Part shown: positions 2,876-23,921 of the stretch, piece by piece
Numbering within the stretch: the first letter of the stretch is position 1
Layout of the letters: the number at the start of each line of letters is the position of its first letter
Virus record (IMG/VR): IMGVR_UViG_3300046804_000446
Coordinates: 1-38,492 of that record
Length of the DNA: 38,492 nt
Source of the DNA: a virus
Strand: one strand, 5' to 3'
Translations under genes and position numbers: made by a program
The notes under the pieces: generated by a model
What the model saw: the letters and a program-made list of their open reading frames with translations, nothing else
Database searches by the model: none
What the model was told of the DNA's origin: nothing

Positions 2876-3658
2876 ATGAAACAACTCCAACTGGTTTGCG
2901 AAGCTCGCCTGAATTTAAGCGAAAAGGCCGGAAGCGAGCCGACCGGAAAGATTGAAGCGACCGTTACCACATGGGGCGCTCGCGAAGGCGCCGATGGCCG
3001 GCGTTTCTTTTATAAGCCTGAAGGCTTTATGCAATGGGCAGAAGACTTTGCAGCTTCTGGCCGTCCCCTGCCGATGTTTGTCAATCACAACGCTGATTCT
3101 GTTCCGGTCGGTGAGTGGACATCATTTGAATTCACAGACAAAGGCATGACCGCAGAAGGGCGCCTTTATCTGAACACCACTCAAGGCTCTGACTTATATC
3201 AAGTCATGTGCGAATCCCCGGCCATGTTCGGCGGTGTTTCTGTAGGAGCATACGCAGATGAGTACTCTATGGTCGACGCTGAAGGCGCGCCTTGCGGCGA
3301 TATGGAACAAGGTTACTTCCAAATCACCAAAGGCGGACTCCGAGAAGTCTCAGTAGTCATGTACCCCAACAATCCAATGGCAGAAGTGTCGAAGCTGGAG
3401 TTCTTCCGCGAAGACGGCTCTGCAAACCTCAAGGTTTTTGAACAAGCACTGCGGGATGTAGGGCTTGACAAAAAAGATGCGAAATTAGCCGCATCTGTTA
3501 TCAAAGACATCATGGAGAAGCGTGACGTTTCCCGTGCTGTCGTTGACACCGAATCTGATGTGCGGGATGTATCTTCAGATGCGGCTAACGCGGAACTTCT
3601 TGCTGCTCTTGAGCAGCGTGAAATTCTCAAACATCTTTCCAATCGACTGAAAGGTTAA
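2876..3658 (+). CDS. HK97-type prohead maturation protease
   Basis: Serine protease of the S78/herpesvirus-assemblin-like fold that trims the capsid N-terminal scaffold during head maturation. The 260-residue product shows a candidate catalytic His (H71 in MFVNHNADSVPVGEW), a candidate Ser (S122 in GGVSVGAYADEY) and the conserved GGLREVSVVMYPNNPMAEV segment near residue 153. The C-terminal 80 residues are helical and charged, as usual for the internal scaffold part. The ATG is preceded by AGGGG at a good distance. It sits 3 bases before major capsid gene 1, whose N-terminal coiled region is its likely substrate. Confidence 0.93.
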   Translation: MKQLQLVCEARLNLSEKAGSEPTGKIEATVTTWGAREGADGRRFFYKPEGFMQWAEDFAASGRPLPMFVNHNADSVPVGEWTSFEFTDKGMTAEGRLYLNTTQGSDLYQVMCESPAMFGGVSVGAYADEYSMVDAEGAPCGDMEQGYFQITKGGLREVSVVMYPNNPMAEVSKLEFFREDGSANLKVFEQALRDVGLDKKDAKLAASVIKDIMEKRDVSRAVVDTESDVRDVSSDAANAELLAALEQREILKHLSNRLKG

Positions 3659-3660
3659 TC

Positions 3661-5004
3661 ATGTCCAAAGAAATCATCGAGAAGCTGGACGCTATCGAAG
3701 CCCAGACTCTTACCAAGGCAGAAGAGATTGCTGCCAAGGCCAATGAGGCCGTCGAAGCTGCTAAGGCAGAACTGACCGAGAAGGTTTCCGCTCTGGAAGC
3801 CAAGATTGCGACGCTGAATGCGCCCGAGATCATTCGTCCTATCGCCAAGACCGTTCGCCAAGACGTGAATCGTTCTGTGCGCGAGCAACTGGCTAACTTC
3901 TACAAGAGCGGCAAGCATCTCGAAAAAGAGCTGCAAATGTTCGCTTCGGAAGACCAGTACTACGCATACATGCAAGAAGCTTCGCAGCTGACTGCTGGTG
4001 GCGATGGTAAGGGTGGCCGCACCGCATACGACCCCGTGTTCGTTGCACTGCGTCTGTACAACCCGCTGCGTGGCGTGTCTCGCACTGTCGCTACTGATGG
4101 TTCGTCCTATCAGTTCCGCGTCAAGACGGGCAACGCTGGTGCACAGTGGGGCTACGGCATTCAAAATAACGGGGCACCCACCACTGAAAACACGTCCATC
4201 TGGCAAATCGTGCTGAAGGACATCAACGTCCAGTTCCCGATCCGCACTGCGGCTCTGGACGACATTGATGGCTTGGAAGCCAACGTTGTTGATGACATGC
4301 TCGCGGAATTCGCCCAGAGCGAAGCCCTCTCGATGATCACCAACAATGACCAGACCGGCACCGGCACTTCGGTGGCAACTGGTGGTGCTGATGGCCTGCG
4401 CGGTCTGGACCAGTACGGTGGCGCTAACGCTACCTACACCGGCGGCACGACCTCTGTGTCGGCTTTCGGTTCCTCTGGCACCGGCTCGACCTCTGGCCTG
4501 CACTCGCTGGCTACGTATGACCAGTTGACCACCAACGGTTTCGGCACGGCTAACAACGTGACGTTCCAAGACATCGTCAACTTTGTCTACGCTCTGCCGC
4601 AGCAGTACTGGACCCCGAATGCCAAGTTCGTCATCAACAACACCATGTTGGCGGCGATTCGTGGCCTGAAGGACGACAACGGCACGCCCGTGTTCGAGCG
4701 TATGCACCCCGCTGAGACTGACGGCATCGTCGGTAAGCTGCTGGGCTTCGATGTAGTGGTCAACTCTTACGTTGACGCTCCCATCGCTGCTGGTGCATCT
4801 GCTGGCACGACTGCGAAGTACCCCATGTACTTCGCTGACTGGAGCCGCTATCACACCATCATCGACCGTCTGAACATGGTGATGCGTCGCTATGACCAGA
4901 CTCTGCCCGGCTTCATCACCTTCTTCGGTGAAAAGCGTCTGGCAACGTCGGTGCGCGATCCCTTCGCCGGTGTGCGTTATCGCTCCACCGCTACGGGTGC
5001 TTGA
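3661..5004 (+). CDS. Major capsid protein 1 (HK97 fold, with N-terminal delta/scaffold domain)
   Basis: Principal head shell protein, 447 residues. Residues 1-60 form a charged, heptad-rich coiled coil (EEIAAKANEAVEAAKAELTE), the delta domain that acts as built-in scaffold and is expected to be removed by the upstream protease, probably near residue 100. The rest is an HK97-fold shell domain ending in QTLPGFITFFGEKRLATS followed by a VRDPFAG-type end, a very common closing motif. It begins 3 bases after the protease stop. A second, shorter capsid-like gene follows after a hairpin-rich gap and is clearly homologous from about residue 112 onward. Confidence 0.95.
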   Translation: MSKEIIEKLDAIEAQTLTKAEEIAAKANEAVEAAKAELTEKVSALEAKIATLNAPEIIRPIAKTVRQDVNRSVREQLANFYKSGKHLEKELQMFASEDQYYAYMQEASQLTAGGDGKGGRTAYDPVFVALRLYNPLRGVSRTVATDGSSYQFRVKTGNAGAQWGYGIQNNGAPTTENTSIWQIVLKDINVQFPIRTAALDDIDGLEANVVDDMLAEFAQSEALSMITNNDQTGTGTSVATGGADGLRGLDQYGGANATYTGGTTSVSAFGSSGTGSTSGLHSLATYDQLTTNGFGTANNVTFQDIVNFVYALPQQYWTPNAKFVINNTMLAAIRGLKDDNGTPVFERMHPAETDGIVGKLLGFDVVVNSYVDAPIAAGASAGTTAKYPMYFADWSRYHTIIDRLNMVMRRYDQTLPGFITFFGEKRLATSVRDPFAGVRYRSTATGA

Positions 5005-5005
5005 T

Positions 5006-5032
5006 AAAGATGGGGGCTTCGGCCCCCTCTTT
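5006..5032 (+). terminator. UUCG-loop hairpin between the two capsid genes
   Basis: Just after the stop of capsid gene 1, GGGGGC (5012-5017) pairs with GCCCCC (5022-5027) around a TTCG tetraloop, and AAAGA (5006-5010) can pair with TCTTT (5028-5032) around a bulged T. This is a very stable hairpin followed by a short T-rich stretch. It looks like an intrinsic terminator or attenuator. Because the downstream genes are essential late genes without an obvious new promoter, partial termination or mRNA 3'-end protection is more likely than a full stop. That role is inferred. Confidence 0.6.
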
Positions 5033-5061
5033 CCAAAGCGGCCACTAGGCTTCTTTGGAAA
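5030..5061 (+). promoter_or_regulatory. Second hairpin overlapping the first
   Basis: TTTCCAAAG (5030-5038) is an exact inverted repeat of CTTTGGAAA (5053-5061). Inside, GGCC at 5040-5043 can pair with GGCT at 5048-5051 (one G-U) around ACTA. The left arm shares TTT (5030-5032) with the outer arm of the preceding hairpin, so the fully extended forms of the two cannot coexist. The hairpin ends about 19 bases before the ribosome site of capsid gene 2. Confidence 0.5.
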
Positions 5062-5094
5062 GATTCTGGGCGCAACGTGAAAAGGATCACGCCA

Positions 5095-6111
5095 ATGGAC
5101 AATAAAACCGAAGCACTGCTGAGTGCAATGAAGACGGCCATCACCGAGCATCGCATGGTGAAGGTCAACCTCAACGAAGCTTCGGCACTGACCGGCTCTG
5201 GTAGCGGCATCGGTGGCCGAGTTCTGTTTGATGACGCATTCGCTGCGCTTCGTTATGCCAATCCTTTTCGGCAAGCTGCGCGTGTTGTGCCTGTTGATGG
5301 TTCTGATATGCAGTTCGTTGCCAAGACTGGTAACGCAACTAATCAAGCCGGCAATCCTTGGGGCTATGCAGTCCAGAATGACAGTGGTTCGCCCGACACC
5401 AACACCACTATTTGGCAATTGCCGGTGCGTGTGGTTGCGGCCCGTCTGCCGATCCGCTCTGCGGTTCTGTCTGACGTGAACAACCTTCAGGGTGCGTTGG
5501 TTGAAGATTTGATGCTTGAGTTCGCTCAGCTCGAAGGCGCCAGCATGGCGATCAACTCTGACCAAGCTGGCTCGACCACCACGACGACCGGTGCAACGAA
5601 TGGCCTGCGTGGCCTGAACATGTATCTGGACGGCGCTGCATCGGCCTATGGCACGTCTGGCACGGCCATCACCAACGGCATCCACACCATCGCTACTCAG
5701 ACGGCCACCACGGCTGTCAAATACGCTGACCTGTATGCCGCGGCCTCAAAGCTGCCCTCGCAATACTGGTCGCTTCCCGGCACCGCATGGCACATCAGCC
5801 CGACCGTGATTCAGACTCTGCGTTCAGAGACTGACCTTCAGGGCTTGCCGATCATGCTGGAAAGCGGTGATGAGGATGGCGGTGCGATCACGCACATCTT
5901 CGGCTGGCCCGTGGTGCCCAATCCTTACCTGTCGGCCTCTTACCCGGTTTATCTGGCTAACTGGCCGCGGTTCTTGACCATTGGCGACAACGAAGAGTTC
6001 AGCCTGCAACTCATGGAACAAACCCTCCCGGGCTTCGTGACGATGTATGCCGAGAAGCGCGTTGTCAGCTCGGTGCGCGATCCTTTTGCTGGTGTTCGCA
6101 TCAAGGTCTAA
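5095..6111 (+). CDS. Second major-capsid-like protein (HK97 fold, no scaffold domain)
   Basis: Paralogue of the preceding major capsid protein, 338 residues from the ATG at 5095, which has AAAGGA about 9 bases upstream; a GTG at 5077 in the same frame is less likely. Shared anchors with protein 1 include EAS-LT then GGR, NPW/QWGYxxQN, IWQ, PIRxAxL, LEFAQ/AEFAQ, and the C-terminal QTLPGF, EKR and SVRDPFAGVR. It starts about 25 residues before the homologous region, so it lacks the coiled delta domain of protein 1. Both copies keep long intact frames. Possible roles are a minor shell subunit, a penton or vertex protein, or an alternative capsid subunit; the sequence does not decide. Confidence 0.9.
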   Translation: MDNKTEALLSAMKTAITEHRMVKVNLNEASALTGSGSGIGGRVLFDDAFAALRYANPFRQAARVVPVDGSDMQFVAKTGNATNQAGNPWGYAVQNDSGSPDTNTTIWQLPVRVVAARLPIRSAVLSDVNNLQGALVEDLMLEFAQLEGASMAINSDQAGSTTTTTGATNGLRGLNMYLDGAASAYGTSGTAITNGIHTIATQTATTAVKYADLYAAASKLPSQYWSLPGTAWHISPTVIQTLRSETDLQGLPIMLESGDEDGGAITHIFGWPVVPNPYLSASYPVYLANWPRFLTIGDNEEFSLQLMEQTLPGFVTMYAEKRVVSSVRDPFAGVRIKV

Positions 6112-6120
6112 GGAGTCGCC

Positions 6121-6813
6121 ATGAGCGGGGATTCGTATCTGACATACGGTGGGCCGTTTCTAGCGCCCACTCGCAACCCGTTTAATTACGCCAAGTTTGA
6201 GCAGATTAACCGGGACAATGTCACGCCTTGGTTGACGCTGGAGGAGATCACTCAGCAGCTCAACCTGTTCAATGACGAATCGCAAGACACCTACCTGACT
6301 GCGCTGGAGCTGGCGACGCGGCAGGCCATCGAGGACTATCTTGGTCTGCCGATTACGCCTGTTTCGTATCGCGTGTACTACAACGCAAGCTCGATCTACG
6401 GCACGCCTCTGGCGCTGGACCTTCCAGAAGTCAGCCCGGGCACGACCAGTGGGCCGTATTGCTACAACGGCAATAACGGTGTCCAGATCAACTTGGTTGG
6501 GTACTGGAACGACAACAGTCCGACCGTGTTTGTGCCGCTGGCTTCAAGCAGCTACATGTACGACAACTCGGGCAACAAGATCATCTTGCAAGATCTGCCC
6601 ACGTCTATCAATACCTTTATGACCTCGCCTGTGGTCGCTGAGTACACGGTTCAGACCAGTCCTCTGTCGGCCTACCCGGTGATCAAGCAAGCTGGGCTTT
6701 TGCTCTTGACGCATCTCTACAACAATCGCTCGAATACAACCGAGCCGATCATGCATGAGATCCCGTTTGGCGTTGCTCAGCTTCTGCGGCCATACAAGCC
6801 TCTGGTGATGTGA
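6121..6813 (+). CDS. Head-tail connector (gp6-like)
   Basis: Adaptor ring expected to bind under the portal. The segment LTLEEITQQLNLFNDESQD followed by YLTALELATRQAIEDYLGLP (about residues 40-80) is the classic start of the HK97 gp6/Phage_connect_1 family, in which short helices follow a Leu-rich start. At 230 residues it is roughly twice the usual gp6 length, with an added beta-rich, Asn/Tyr/Ser-rich middle and a C-terminal helix LLLLTHLYNNRS. The ATG has AAGGAG nine bases before it. It follows capsid gene 2 by 9 bases. Confidence 0.8.
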   Translation: MSGDSYLTYGGPFLAPTRNPFNYAKFEQINRDNVTPWLTLEEITQQLNLFNDESQDTYLTALELATRQAIEDYLGLPITPVSYRVYYNASSIYGTPLALDLPEVSPGTTSGPYCYNGNNGVQINLVGYWNDNSPTVFVPLASSSYMYDNSGNKIILQDLPTSINTFMTSPVVAEYTVQTSPLSAYPVIKQAGLLLLTHLYNNRSNTTEPIMHEIPFGVAQLLRPYKPLVM

Positions 6814-7610: not shown

Positions 7611-8105
7611 ATGGCCCTGCCAAACAAAGTTCTACCCGGTTTTAGCGCTACGCTGTACGCACAACCTAGCGCCACGCCAACTCCGCTGACCGTCACGCAA
7701 CTCAGCACGCTGGCTAACGTAGCGGCCATTGCGGTGTCTGGTAACCAACTTAACGTTGAAGCTATCCCGGCCTTCGGTCAGGATGATGCGATGGCGAACT
7801 TCGCCGTGGCTGGTTCGCGCCAGTCCGACAAGATCCCCACGCAGGCTGCGCCGACCTCCATGACGATCACTGCGGCTTGGAACCCCTCGGACACCAACAT
7901 CCTGCAAATGCGCGCTGATGCCTACAACGGCACCATCGACCGCACGTTTGTGGTGTCGGCTACCGATGGCACCAACATCGTGTATTACGCTTTCAATGGC
8001 CGCGTCAGTCAATTCCAGATCGACGCACAACCCGGTGCGGAAGCCAAGGCTATCTTCACCGTCCATCCCCGCGGAAACCAGTACGGCTGGTCCAACAACG
8101 CTTGA
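7611..8105 (+). CDS. Major tail tube protein, copy 1
   Basis: 164 residues; predicted building block of the tail tube. It starts MALPNKVLPGFSA and ends IFTVHPRGNQYGWSNN plus one Ala. Its long conserved core (FGQDDAMANFAVAGSRQSDK through PGAEAKAIFTVHPRGNQ) has the alternating strands expected for a tail tube protein. Position just after the tail terminator and before the chaperones supports this. A near twin follows directly. Ribosome site AAAGGAA lies upstream of the ATG. I see no Ig-like added domain. Confidence 0.85.
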   Translation: MALPNKVLPGFSATLYAQPSATPTPLTVTQLSTLANVAAIAVSGNQLNVEAIPAFGQDDAMANFAVAGSRQSDKIPTQAAPTSMTITAAWNPSDTNILQMRADAYNGTIDRTFVVSATDGTNIVYYAFNGRVSQFQIDAQPGAEAKAIFTVHPRGNQYGWSNNA

Positions 8106-8113
8106 GGTGAATC

Positions 8114-8632
8114 ATGGCACTGCCCAATAAAGTCCTACCCGGTTTTTCGGCATCGCTGTGGTGCCAGTCTGCGGCCACGCCGACGCCGCTTACCACGGCG
8201 AACCTTTCGGTGTGGGCCTCTCAGGTTCAGACCATCGTTGGCACCGCGGCTGGTGGCACCGGCTCTGCTGGTCAGCAATTGAACGTCGAGGCCGTGCCTG
8301 CATTTGGTCAAGACGATGCCATGGCTAACTTCGCTGTGGCCGGCTCGCGTCAGTCGGACAAGATCCCGACTCAAGCAGCGCCCACCAGCATGACCATCAC
8401 GGCAGCTTGGAATCCTTCGGATGCCGGCCTGCTTCAGATGCGTGCTGACGCTTATAACGGCACCGTAGACCGCACGTTCGTTGTGGCTGCATACGACGGC
8501 TCCAATACCGTCGCATACGCCTTCAATGGCCGTGTTTCACAGTTCCAGATTGACGCGCAACCGGGTGCGGAAGCCAAGTGCATCTTCACCGTGCATCCGC
8601 GCGGCAATCAATACGGCTGGAGCAACAACTAA
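8114..8632 (+). CDS. Major tail tube protein, copy 2
   Basis: 172 residues; paralogue of the preceding gene. The two share the first 13 residues and, from QLNVEA onward, nearly all positions by eye; the middle (about residues 28-50) differs and is longer here (a Gly-rich GTAAGGTGSAGQQ insertion). In the identical stretch QSDKIPTQAAPTSMTITAAW many codons differ silently, so this is an old duplication held by purifying selection, not a recent copy or assembly error. Ribosome site GAGGTG precedes the ATG. The stop overlaps the next start (TAATG). Confidence 0.85.
   Translation: MALPNKVLPGFSASLWCQSAATPTPLTTANLSVWASQVQTIVGTAAGGTGSAGQQLNVEAVPAFGQDDAMANFAVAGSRQSDKIPTQAAPTSMTITAAWNPSDAGLLQMRADAYNGTVDRTFVVAAYDGSNTVAYAFNGRVSQFQIDAQPGAEAKCIFTVHPRGNQYGWSNN

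Positions 8633-18839: not shown

Positions 18840-18843
<4 letters not shown>
18355..18843 (+). CDS. Baseplate/tail-fibre attachment protein, family uncertain
   Basis: 162 residues with a good AGGGGA ribosome site 77 bases after the J-like gene. Beta-sandwich-like: [35 protein letters not shown], then [20 protein letters not shown] and a final strand [19 protein letters not shown]. This pattern resembles BppU-like or fibre-adaptor domains that hold fibres on the tail tip (family resemblance only). It overlaps the big fibre gene by ATGA, so the two are translationally coupled and are likely partners. Confidence 0.7.

Positions 18844-23921
<5,078 letters not shown>

Follow-up and report, generated by a model that had tools for sequence, protein, structure and literature searches.

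Two adjoining genes in the head operon of a 38,492-base virus record, analysed here over its whole length (hereafter referred to as the window), encode capsid proteins of the HK97 fold, M1 and M2, of which only M1 has an N-terminal scaffold domain of the delta type. The sequences indicate that M2 probably co-assembles with M1 in some way and, by analogy with gp24 beside gp23 in T4, there is about an even chance that it is a minor capsid subunit forming the pentameric vertices. The pair, which is fixed over hundreds of freshwater virus contigs and one cultured phage, is a candidate second case of a two-protein shell, apparently unrelated to that of T4 and much smaller, and provides a natural comparison for two questions: how an HK97 subunit comes to form pentamers or hexamers, and which subunits need a delta domain.

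M1, the major capsid protein (3661..5004, plus strand; 447 residues), matches Pfam PF05065 (E 1.3e-30) and the NCBIfam HK97 major capsid model TIGR01554 over almost the whole profile (E 1.6e-33). M2 (5095..6111, plus strand; 338 residues) follows directly, and both open reading frames are intact and lie between an S78 prohead protease gene (HK97 gp4-like; 2876..3658, plus strand; PF04586, E 1.2e-7; phrog_80, head maturation protease) and a gp6/Ad1-like head–tail adaptor gene (6121..6813, plus strand; PF05135, E 2.2e-5; phrog_40; synteny). The coordinates and description of the tandem pair in the initial annotation are correct, with one refinement: the listed M2 frame opens at GTG 5077, and ATG 5095 is the likelier start, because an AAAAGGA ribosome-binding-like site lies ~9 nt upstream of it and the resulting length matches the relatives. 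BLASTP aligns M1 and M2 at 39% identity over 344 columns (E 1e-72), from residue 104 of M1 and residue 26 of M2 to near both C termini, and the EAS-LT, QTLPGF and SVRDPFAGVR anchors, from which a common HK97 fold had been proposed, all fall inside this alignment. M2 also matches phrog_10 (E 6e-12) and TIGR01554 (E 3.1e-17), both proteins scoring above the curated cut-off of the latter (62.8 bits for M2 against a cut-off of 27.5). M2 thus belongs to the HK97 capsid family, and a PF05065 search with M2 gave no match; 'hypothetical' genes behind a capsid gene can therefore be capsid proteins.

The delta-like N-terminal region of M1 spans approximately residues 1–104 (3661..3972, plus strand). In the AlphaFold model of M1 (pLDDT 69.5), it comprises a long helix (residues 2–53), a weak linker (residues ~54–64) and a further helix (residues 65–82), with low confidence in this part. 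M1 thus combines the two features of the delta type, a long helical N-terminal region and an S78 protease gene (2876–3658), the product of which is expected to remove the region. Among 67 representatives, M1 has 98–112 residues ahead of the common EAS motif, versus 23–41 in M2, which lacks the ~100-residue N-terminal domain of the HK97 type; in agreement, TIGR01554 matches M1 from profile position 6 and M2 only from position 127. The proposal that only the first protein has a delta domain was therefore borne out. A hidden delta domain or a frameshift fusion upstream of M2 was ruled out, because an in-frame stop lies 1–4 codons 5′ of the M2 start in many relatives and the two genes have a terminator-like hairpin between them.

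The AlphaFold model of M2 (pLDDT 76) has a single short N-terminal helix (residues 4–18), which the joint alignment sets against helix 65–82 of M1; M2 would in that case start at about the same place as mature, cleaved M1. The model shows an HK97 fold with the spine helix, E-loop, and A and P domains, and its best fold matches are the GTA and cf-PICI capsids (VIA-align Z 21) and HK97 prohead I (Z ~18). Encapsulin structures are also found among the matches and, together with the missing delta domain, would fit a role of M2 outside the infectious virion, as an assembly helper or as the maker of separate small scaffold-free shells. However, the GTA and HK97 capsids are closer matches than the encapsulins, the gene is embedded in the head operon and its codon bias is nearer to that of virion structural genes (see below), making such a role quite unlikely. 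Within the shell core, M2 has three multi-residue deletions, at M1 residues 256–264, 289–295 and 374–385, all of which presumably fall in the A domain, as assigned from the order in which the modelled elements occur rather than by residue-level structural superposition. Similarly, some of the gp23 mutations that bypass gp24 in T4 lie in the A domain (PMC9958956).

When 274 loci were classified by profile, some of them sharing a contig, 256 (~210 distinct sequence pairs) had M1 followed by M2 in the same order. In the remaining loci, the contig ends at most 161 bases from the gene, one of them holding just a 123-base scrap of M1, and no locus with adequate downstream sequence has M1 without M2. 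Since the exceptions lie at contig ends and all 13 records of 35–39 kb have exactly two capsid genes each, the pair is obligate in the group as sampled, which is a large, uncharacterised set of freshwater phages represented by hundreds of IMG/VR contigs and by the Methylophilaceae phage P19250A (KX815270). P19250A, the only cultured relative found, resembles the window in the gene pair, its order and the gap hairpin (58.5% and 55.7% identity for M1 and M2, respectively), and its M2 is annotated as a 'hypothetical protein'. The OM43 phage Venkman, which the literature likens to P19250A, was rejected: it has a single capsid gene, with the scaffold encoded by a gene of its own, and no match to either M1 or M2. 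A first scan for host genomes gave none; a second, run with the M1 profile, yielded five contigs from bins of metagenome assemblies, each of which has the pair. These contigs (L182–L186) were binned as several bacterial groups and even an archaeon (Candidatus Nitrosotalea), names that are probably binning errors in part.

Among 67 representatives, the M1 proteins have a median identity of 68% and the M2 proteins one of 61%. The dN/dS medians (NG86) are 0.08–0.24 for either gene at every distance, with no difference between M1 and M2, and the values in close pairs are 0.03–0.33, never near 1. M1 and M2 are under equally strong purifying selection (dN/dS ~0.1–0.2) and, with both frames intact, both proteins are in use, as the initial annotation had supposed. 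It had also named a dN/dS near 1 in relatives, together with an absence of protein 2 from purified particles, as the sign of a decaying duplicate. The values obtained rule out decay, M2 has been kept at all loci through a deep radiation and, as nothing besides its being a paralog speaks for a decaying or redundant copy, that explanation has practically no probability left.

A tree that included seven outgroup capsids placed M2 in one clade (SH-aLRT 99) and M1 on the other side, with most of the change on a long M2 stem (1.48 changes per column); the root position is soft, as the outgroups are very distant. M1 and M2 are two clades from one ancient duplication, and the better scores of M1 on the family models suggest that it retained the ancestral role. 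Recent duplication or gene conversion was ruled out, since M1 and M2 of the same genome are 41.0% identical versus 40.8% for mismatched genomes (permutation p 0.037, a negligible effect). Partners have apparently been swapped by recombination and kept: in one locus (L142), the tree places M1 in one clade and M2 in another, and some close M1 pairs have far more distant M2 proteins (for example, L118/L087, with dS of 0.19 for M1 and 0.72 for M2).

The joint alignment contains 64 columns in which M1 and M2 have the same residue, conserved to at least 90%, and 15 that are conserved yet different, indicating the same fold with stable specialization; 42 conserved positions are specific to M1. The 64 common positions, and an M1–M2 identity far above the 17–20% of gp23 and gp24, would be compatible with M2 mixing with M1 at variable sites of both hexamers and pentamers, perhaps to adjust stability or the surface, and the two-component family 2B encapsulin offers a precedent for such heteromeric capsomers in its seemingly random tiling (PMC12407261). 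Such mixing is nevertheless unlikely, as the M1-specific positions and the 15 fixed differences suggest a defined rather than an interchangeable role, same-genome partners are no more alike than mismatched ones and M2 is predicted to be rarer than M1. The M1–M2 divergence is even over the domains (M1–M2 relative to within-family identity, 0.59–0.70 in each), and as a test of vertex versus hexamer this comparison singled out no capsomer interface and did not separate the rivals.

The M1–M2 gap contains a GC-rich hairpin (GGGGGC-TTCG-GCCCCC, then TCTTT; 5011..5026, plus strand; RNA fold), which resembles an intrinsic terminator and is a putative one. A hairpin occupies the same place in all 135 full pairs, with a stem of at least 6 in 133 of them (script) and usually with a T run, and its sequence varies between lineages. 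A terminator here is ordinary, since the capsid gene of HK97 is likewise followed by a putative one; a capsid paralog behind it is unusual. A second inverted repeat, TCTTTCCAAAG...CTTTGGAAAGA (5027..5062, plus strand; RNA fold of the gap), lies 3′ of this hairpin only in the window's own subgroup (L003, L005 and L013) and is absent in most relatives. Just past the hairpin, two groups (L006, L009, L012, L030 and relatives) have a 100-residue open reading frame of an uncharacterised family (phrog_2859, E 6e-27) between M1 and M2, and L056 has a homing endonuclease gene there (phrog_314; 1511–2080).

Codon adaptation, with the tail tube gene as the reference, is higher for M1 than for M2 in 46 of 50 genomes, and higher for M2 than for the portal (38 of 45), the protease (37 of 47) and the adaptor (43 of 50). 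As a weak proxy for dose, it suggests that M2 is a medium-abundance virion protein, with a dose between those of the major capsid protein and a 12-copy protein. The adaptor gene lies directly 3′ of M2 in 147 of the 147 loci tested, as might be expected if M2 were a specialized portal–shell adaptor, located at the unique portal vertex or in a ring around it. However, a codon adaptation above those of the portal and adaptor suggests more than 5–12 copies, and no family of such a kind matched M2; we regard a portal-vertex role as very unlikely.

A pentameric vertex subunit has its model in T4, in which gp23 makes hexamers and gp24 pentameric vertices, and the N-terminal propeptide that is removed measures 65 residues in gp23 but only 10 in gp24 (PMC9958956). 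T4 is the sole virus known to have a separate vertex capsid paralog, according to a 2025 paper (PMC12407261), and prior reports of tandem HK97 capsid paralogs in the accessible literature were limited to T4, the encapsulin and Bacillus phage B450T, the last of which is a single mention at the level of annotation. Like M1 and M2, gp23 and gp24 are two HK97-fold paralogs in one phage, considered to have originated by gene duplication, and the minor paralog has the much shorter N terminus (PMC9958956), so that M2 resembles gp24 in arrangement. By contrast, T4, a large myophage, has a prolate head and uses separate scaffold core proteins, whereas the M1/M2 phages are 35–39 kb with a fused delta-like domain, and M1 and M2 are 39% identical as compared with ~17–20% for gp23 and gp24. 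The duplication looks independent of that in T4, because T4 proteins, including gp24, were absent among the fold matches listed for M2, as from the sequence search, although absence from such a list is not exclusion. The window shares with HK97 the order portal–S78 protease–capsid–adaptor and the putative terminator, and M1, with its delta-type N terminus, and M2 have the same fold as HK97 gp5 and the Rhodobacter GTA and cf-PICI EcCI2 capsids; unlike the pair, these systems use one capsid protein for pentamers and hexamers. The two-component encapsulin of Streptomyces lydicus likewise has two HK97-fold shell proteins of one operon, which co-assemble, but it is a non-viral shell reported to have mixed capsomers with random tiling and has no phage assembly genes (PMC12407261), whereas M1 and M2 are both encoded in a phage head operon.

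We propose that M2 descends from a copy of the major capsid gene made in an ancient duplication and has lost the scaffold domain. M1, with its fused delta domain, would nucleate the prohead together with the portal and protease and make the hexamers, and M2 would join the growing shell as a subunit with no need of delta-domain cleavage. Its most likely place would be the 11 vertices other than that of the portal, which it would occupy as homopentamers; a T=7 head, with the T number assumed from the genome size, would then hold ~55 copies. The dose of M2 would be kept below that of M1 by the terminator-like hairpin together with the weaker codon adaptation of its gene. As in a gp24-type vertex protein, M2 is a paralog of the major capsid protein with conserved differences of its own (the reciprocal clades and 15 fixed differences), and we count in favour of a vertex position the pairing, equal selection, reciprocal clades, conserved columns, M2 fold, hairpin, codon tiers, A-domain deletions and the propeptide asymmetry of T4. 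Homology, universal pairing, selection, loss of the N-terminal domain, the hairpin and the codon tiers are shown by the sequences; that M2 is in the virion, that it sits at the vertices, its copy number and the T number are inferred, as is co-assembly, for which the indirect support is good.

Several points count against a vertex position: to our knowledge, all other well-studied HK97-fold phages build pentamers and hexamers from one protein; the delta-containing gp5 of HK97 makes both; and the even domain divergence, the commonness of terminators after capsid genes and the weakness of the codon proxy weigh on the same side. Tentatively, with a little under an even chance of being right, an entire lineage of small tailed phages of the HK97 type (fused scaffold, 35–39 kb) would have divided its capsid, independently of T4, between a scaffold-bearing hexamer protein and a scaffold-free pentamer protein. 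In that case, only hexamers would need the scaffold domain, and two separate genes would set the shell geometry in these phages. The initial annotation had held that the second protein must co-assemble with the first, depend on it or replace it at vertices. Co-assembly or a special place such as the vertices is still the best reading, because both proteins have the HK97 fold, both are in use and the pairing is without exception. Obligatory dependence on M1 is plausible but does not follow: HK97 itself requires a fused delta domain, whereas other shells of this fold do without, many phages having separate scaffold proteins and encapsulins none.

Two further features of the window concern the tail and fibre genes. 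The tail tube gene is also duplicated (7611–8105 and 8114–8632; copies 78% identical); among 105 relatives with sufficient sequence, 32 have two copies and 73, including P19250A, have one, and this patchy duplication is probably younger than that of the capsid gene. Positions 18840–23921 encode a fibre-like protein of 1,693 residues, which has long GPTGPTG repeats of the collagen-like kind and ends in a chaperone-like tail (DFRLKKNI motif).
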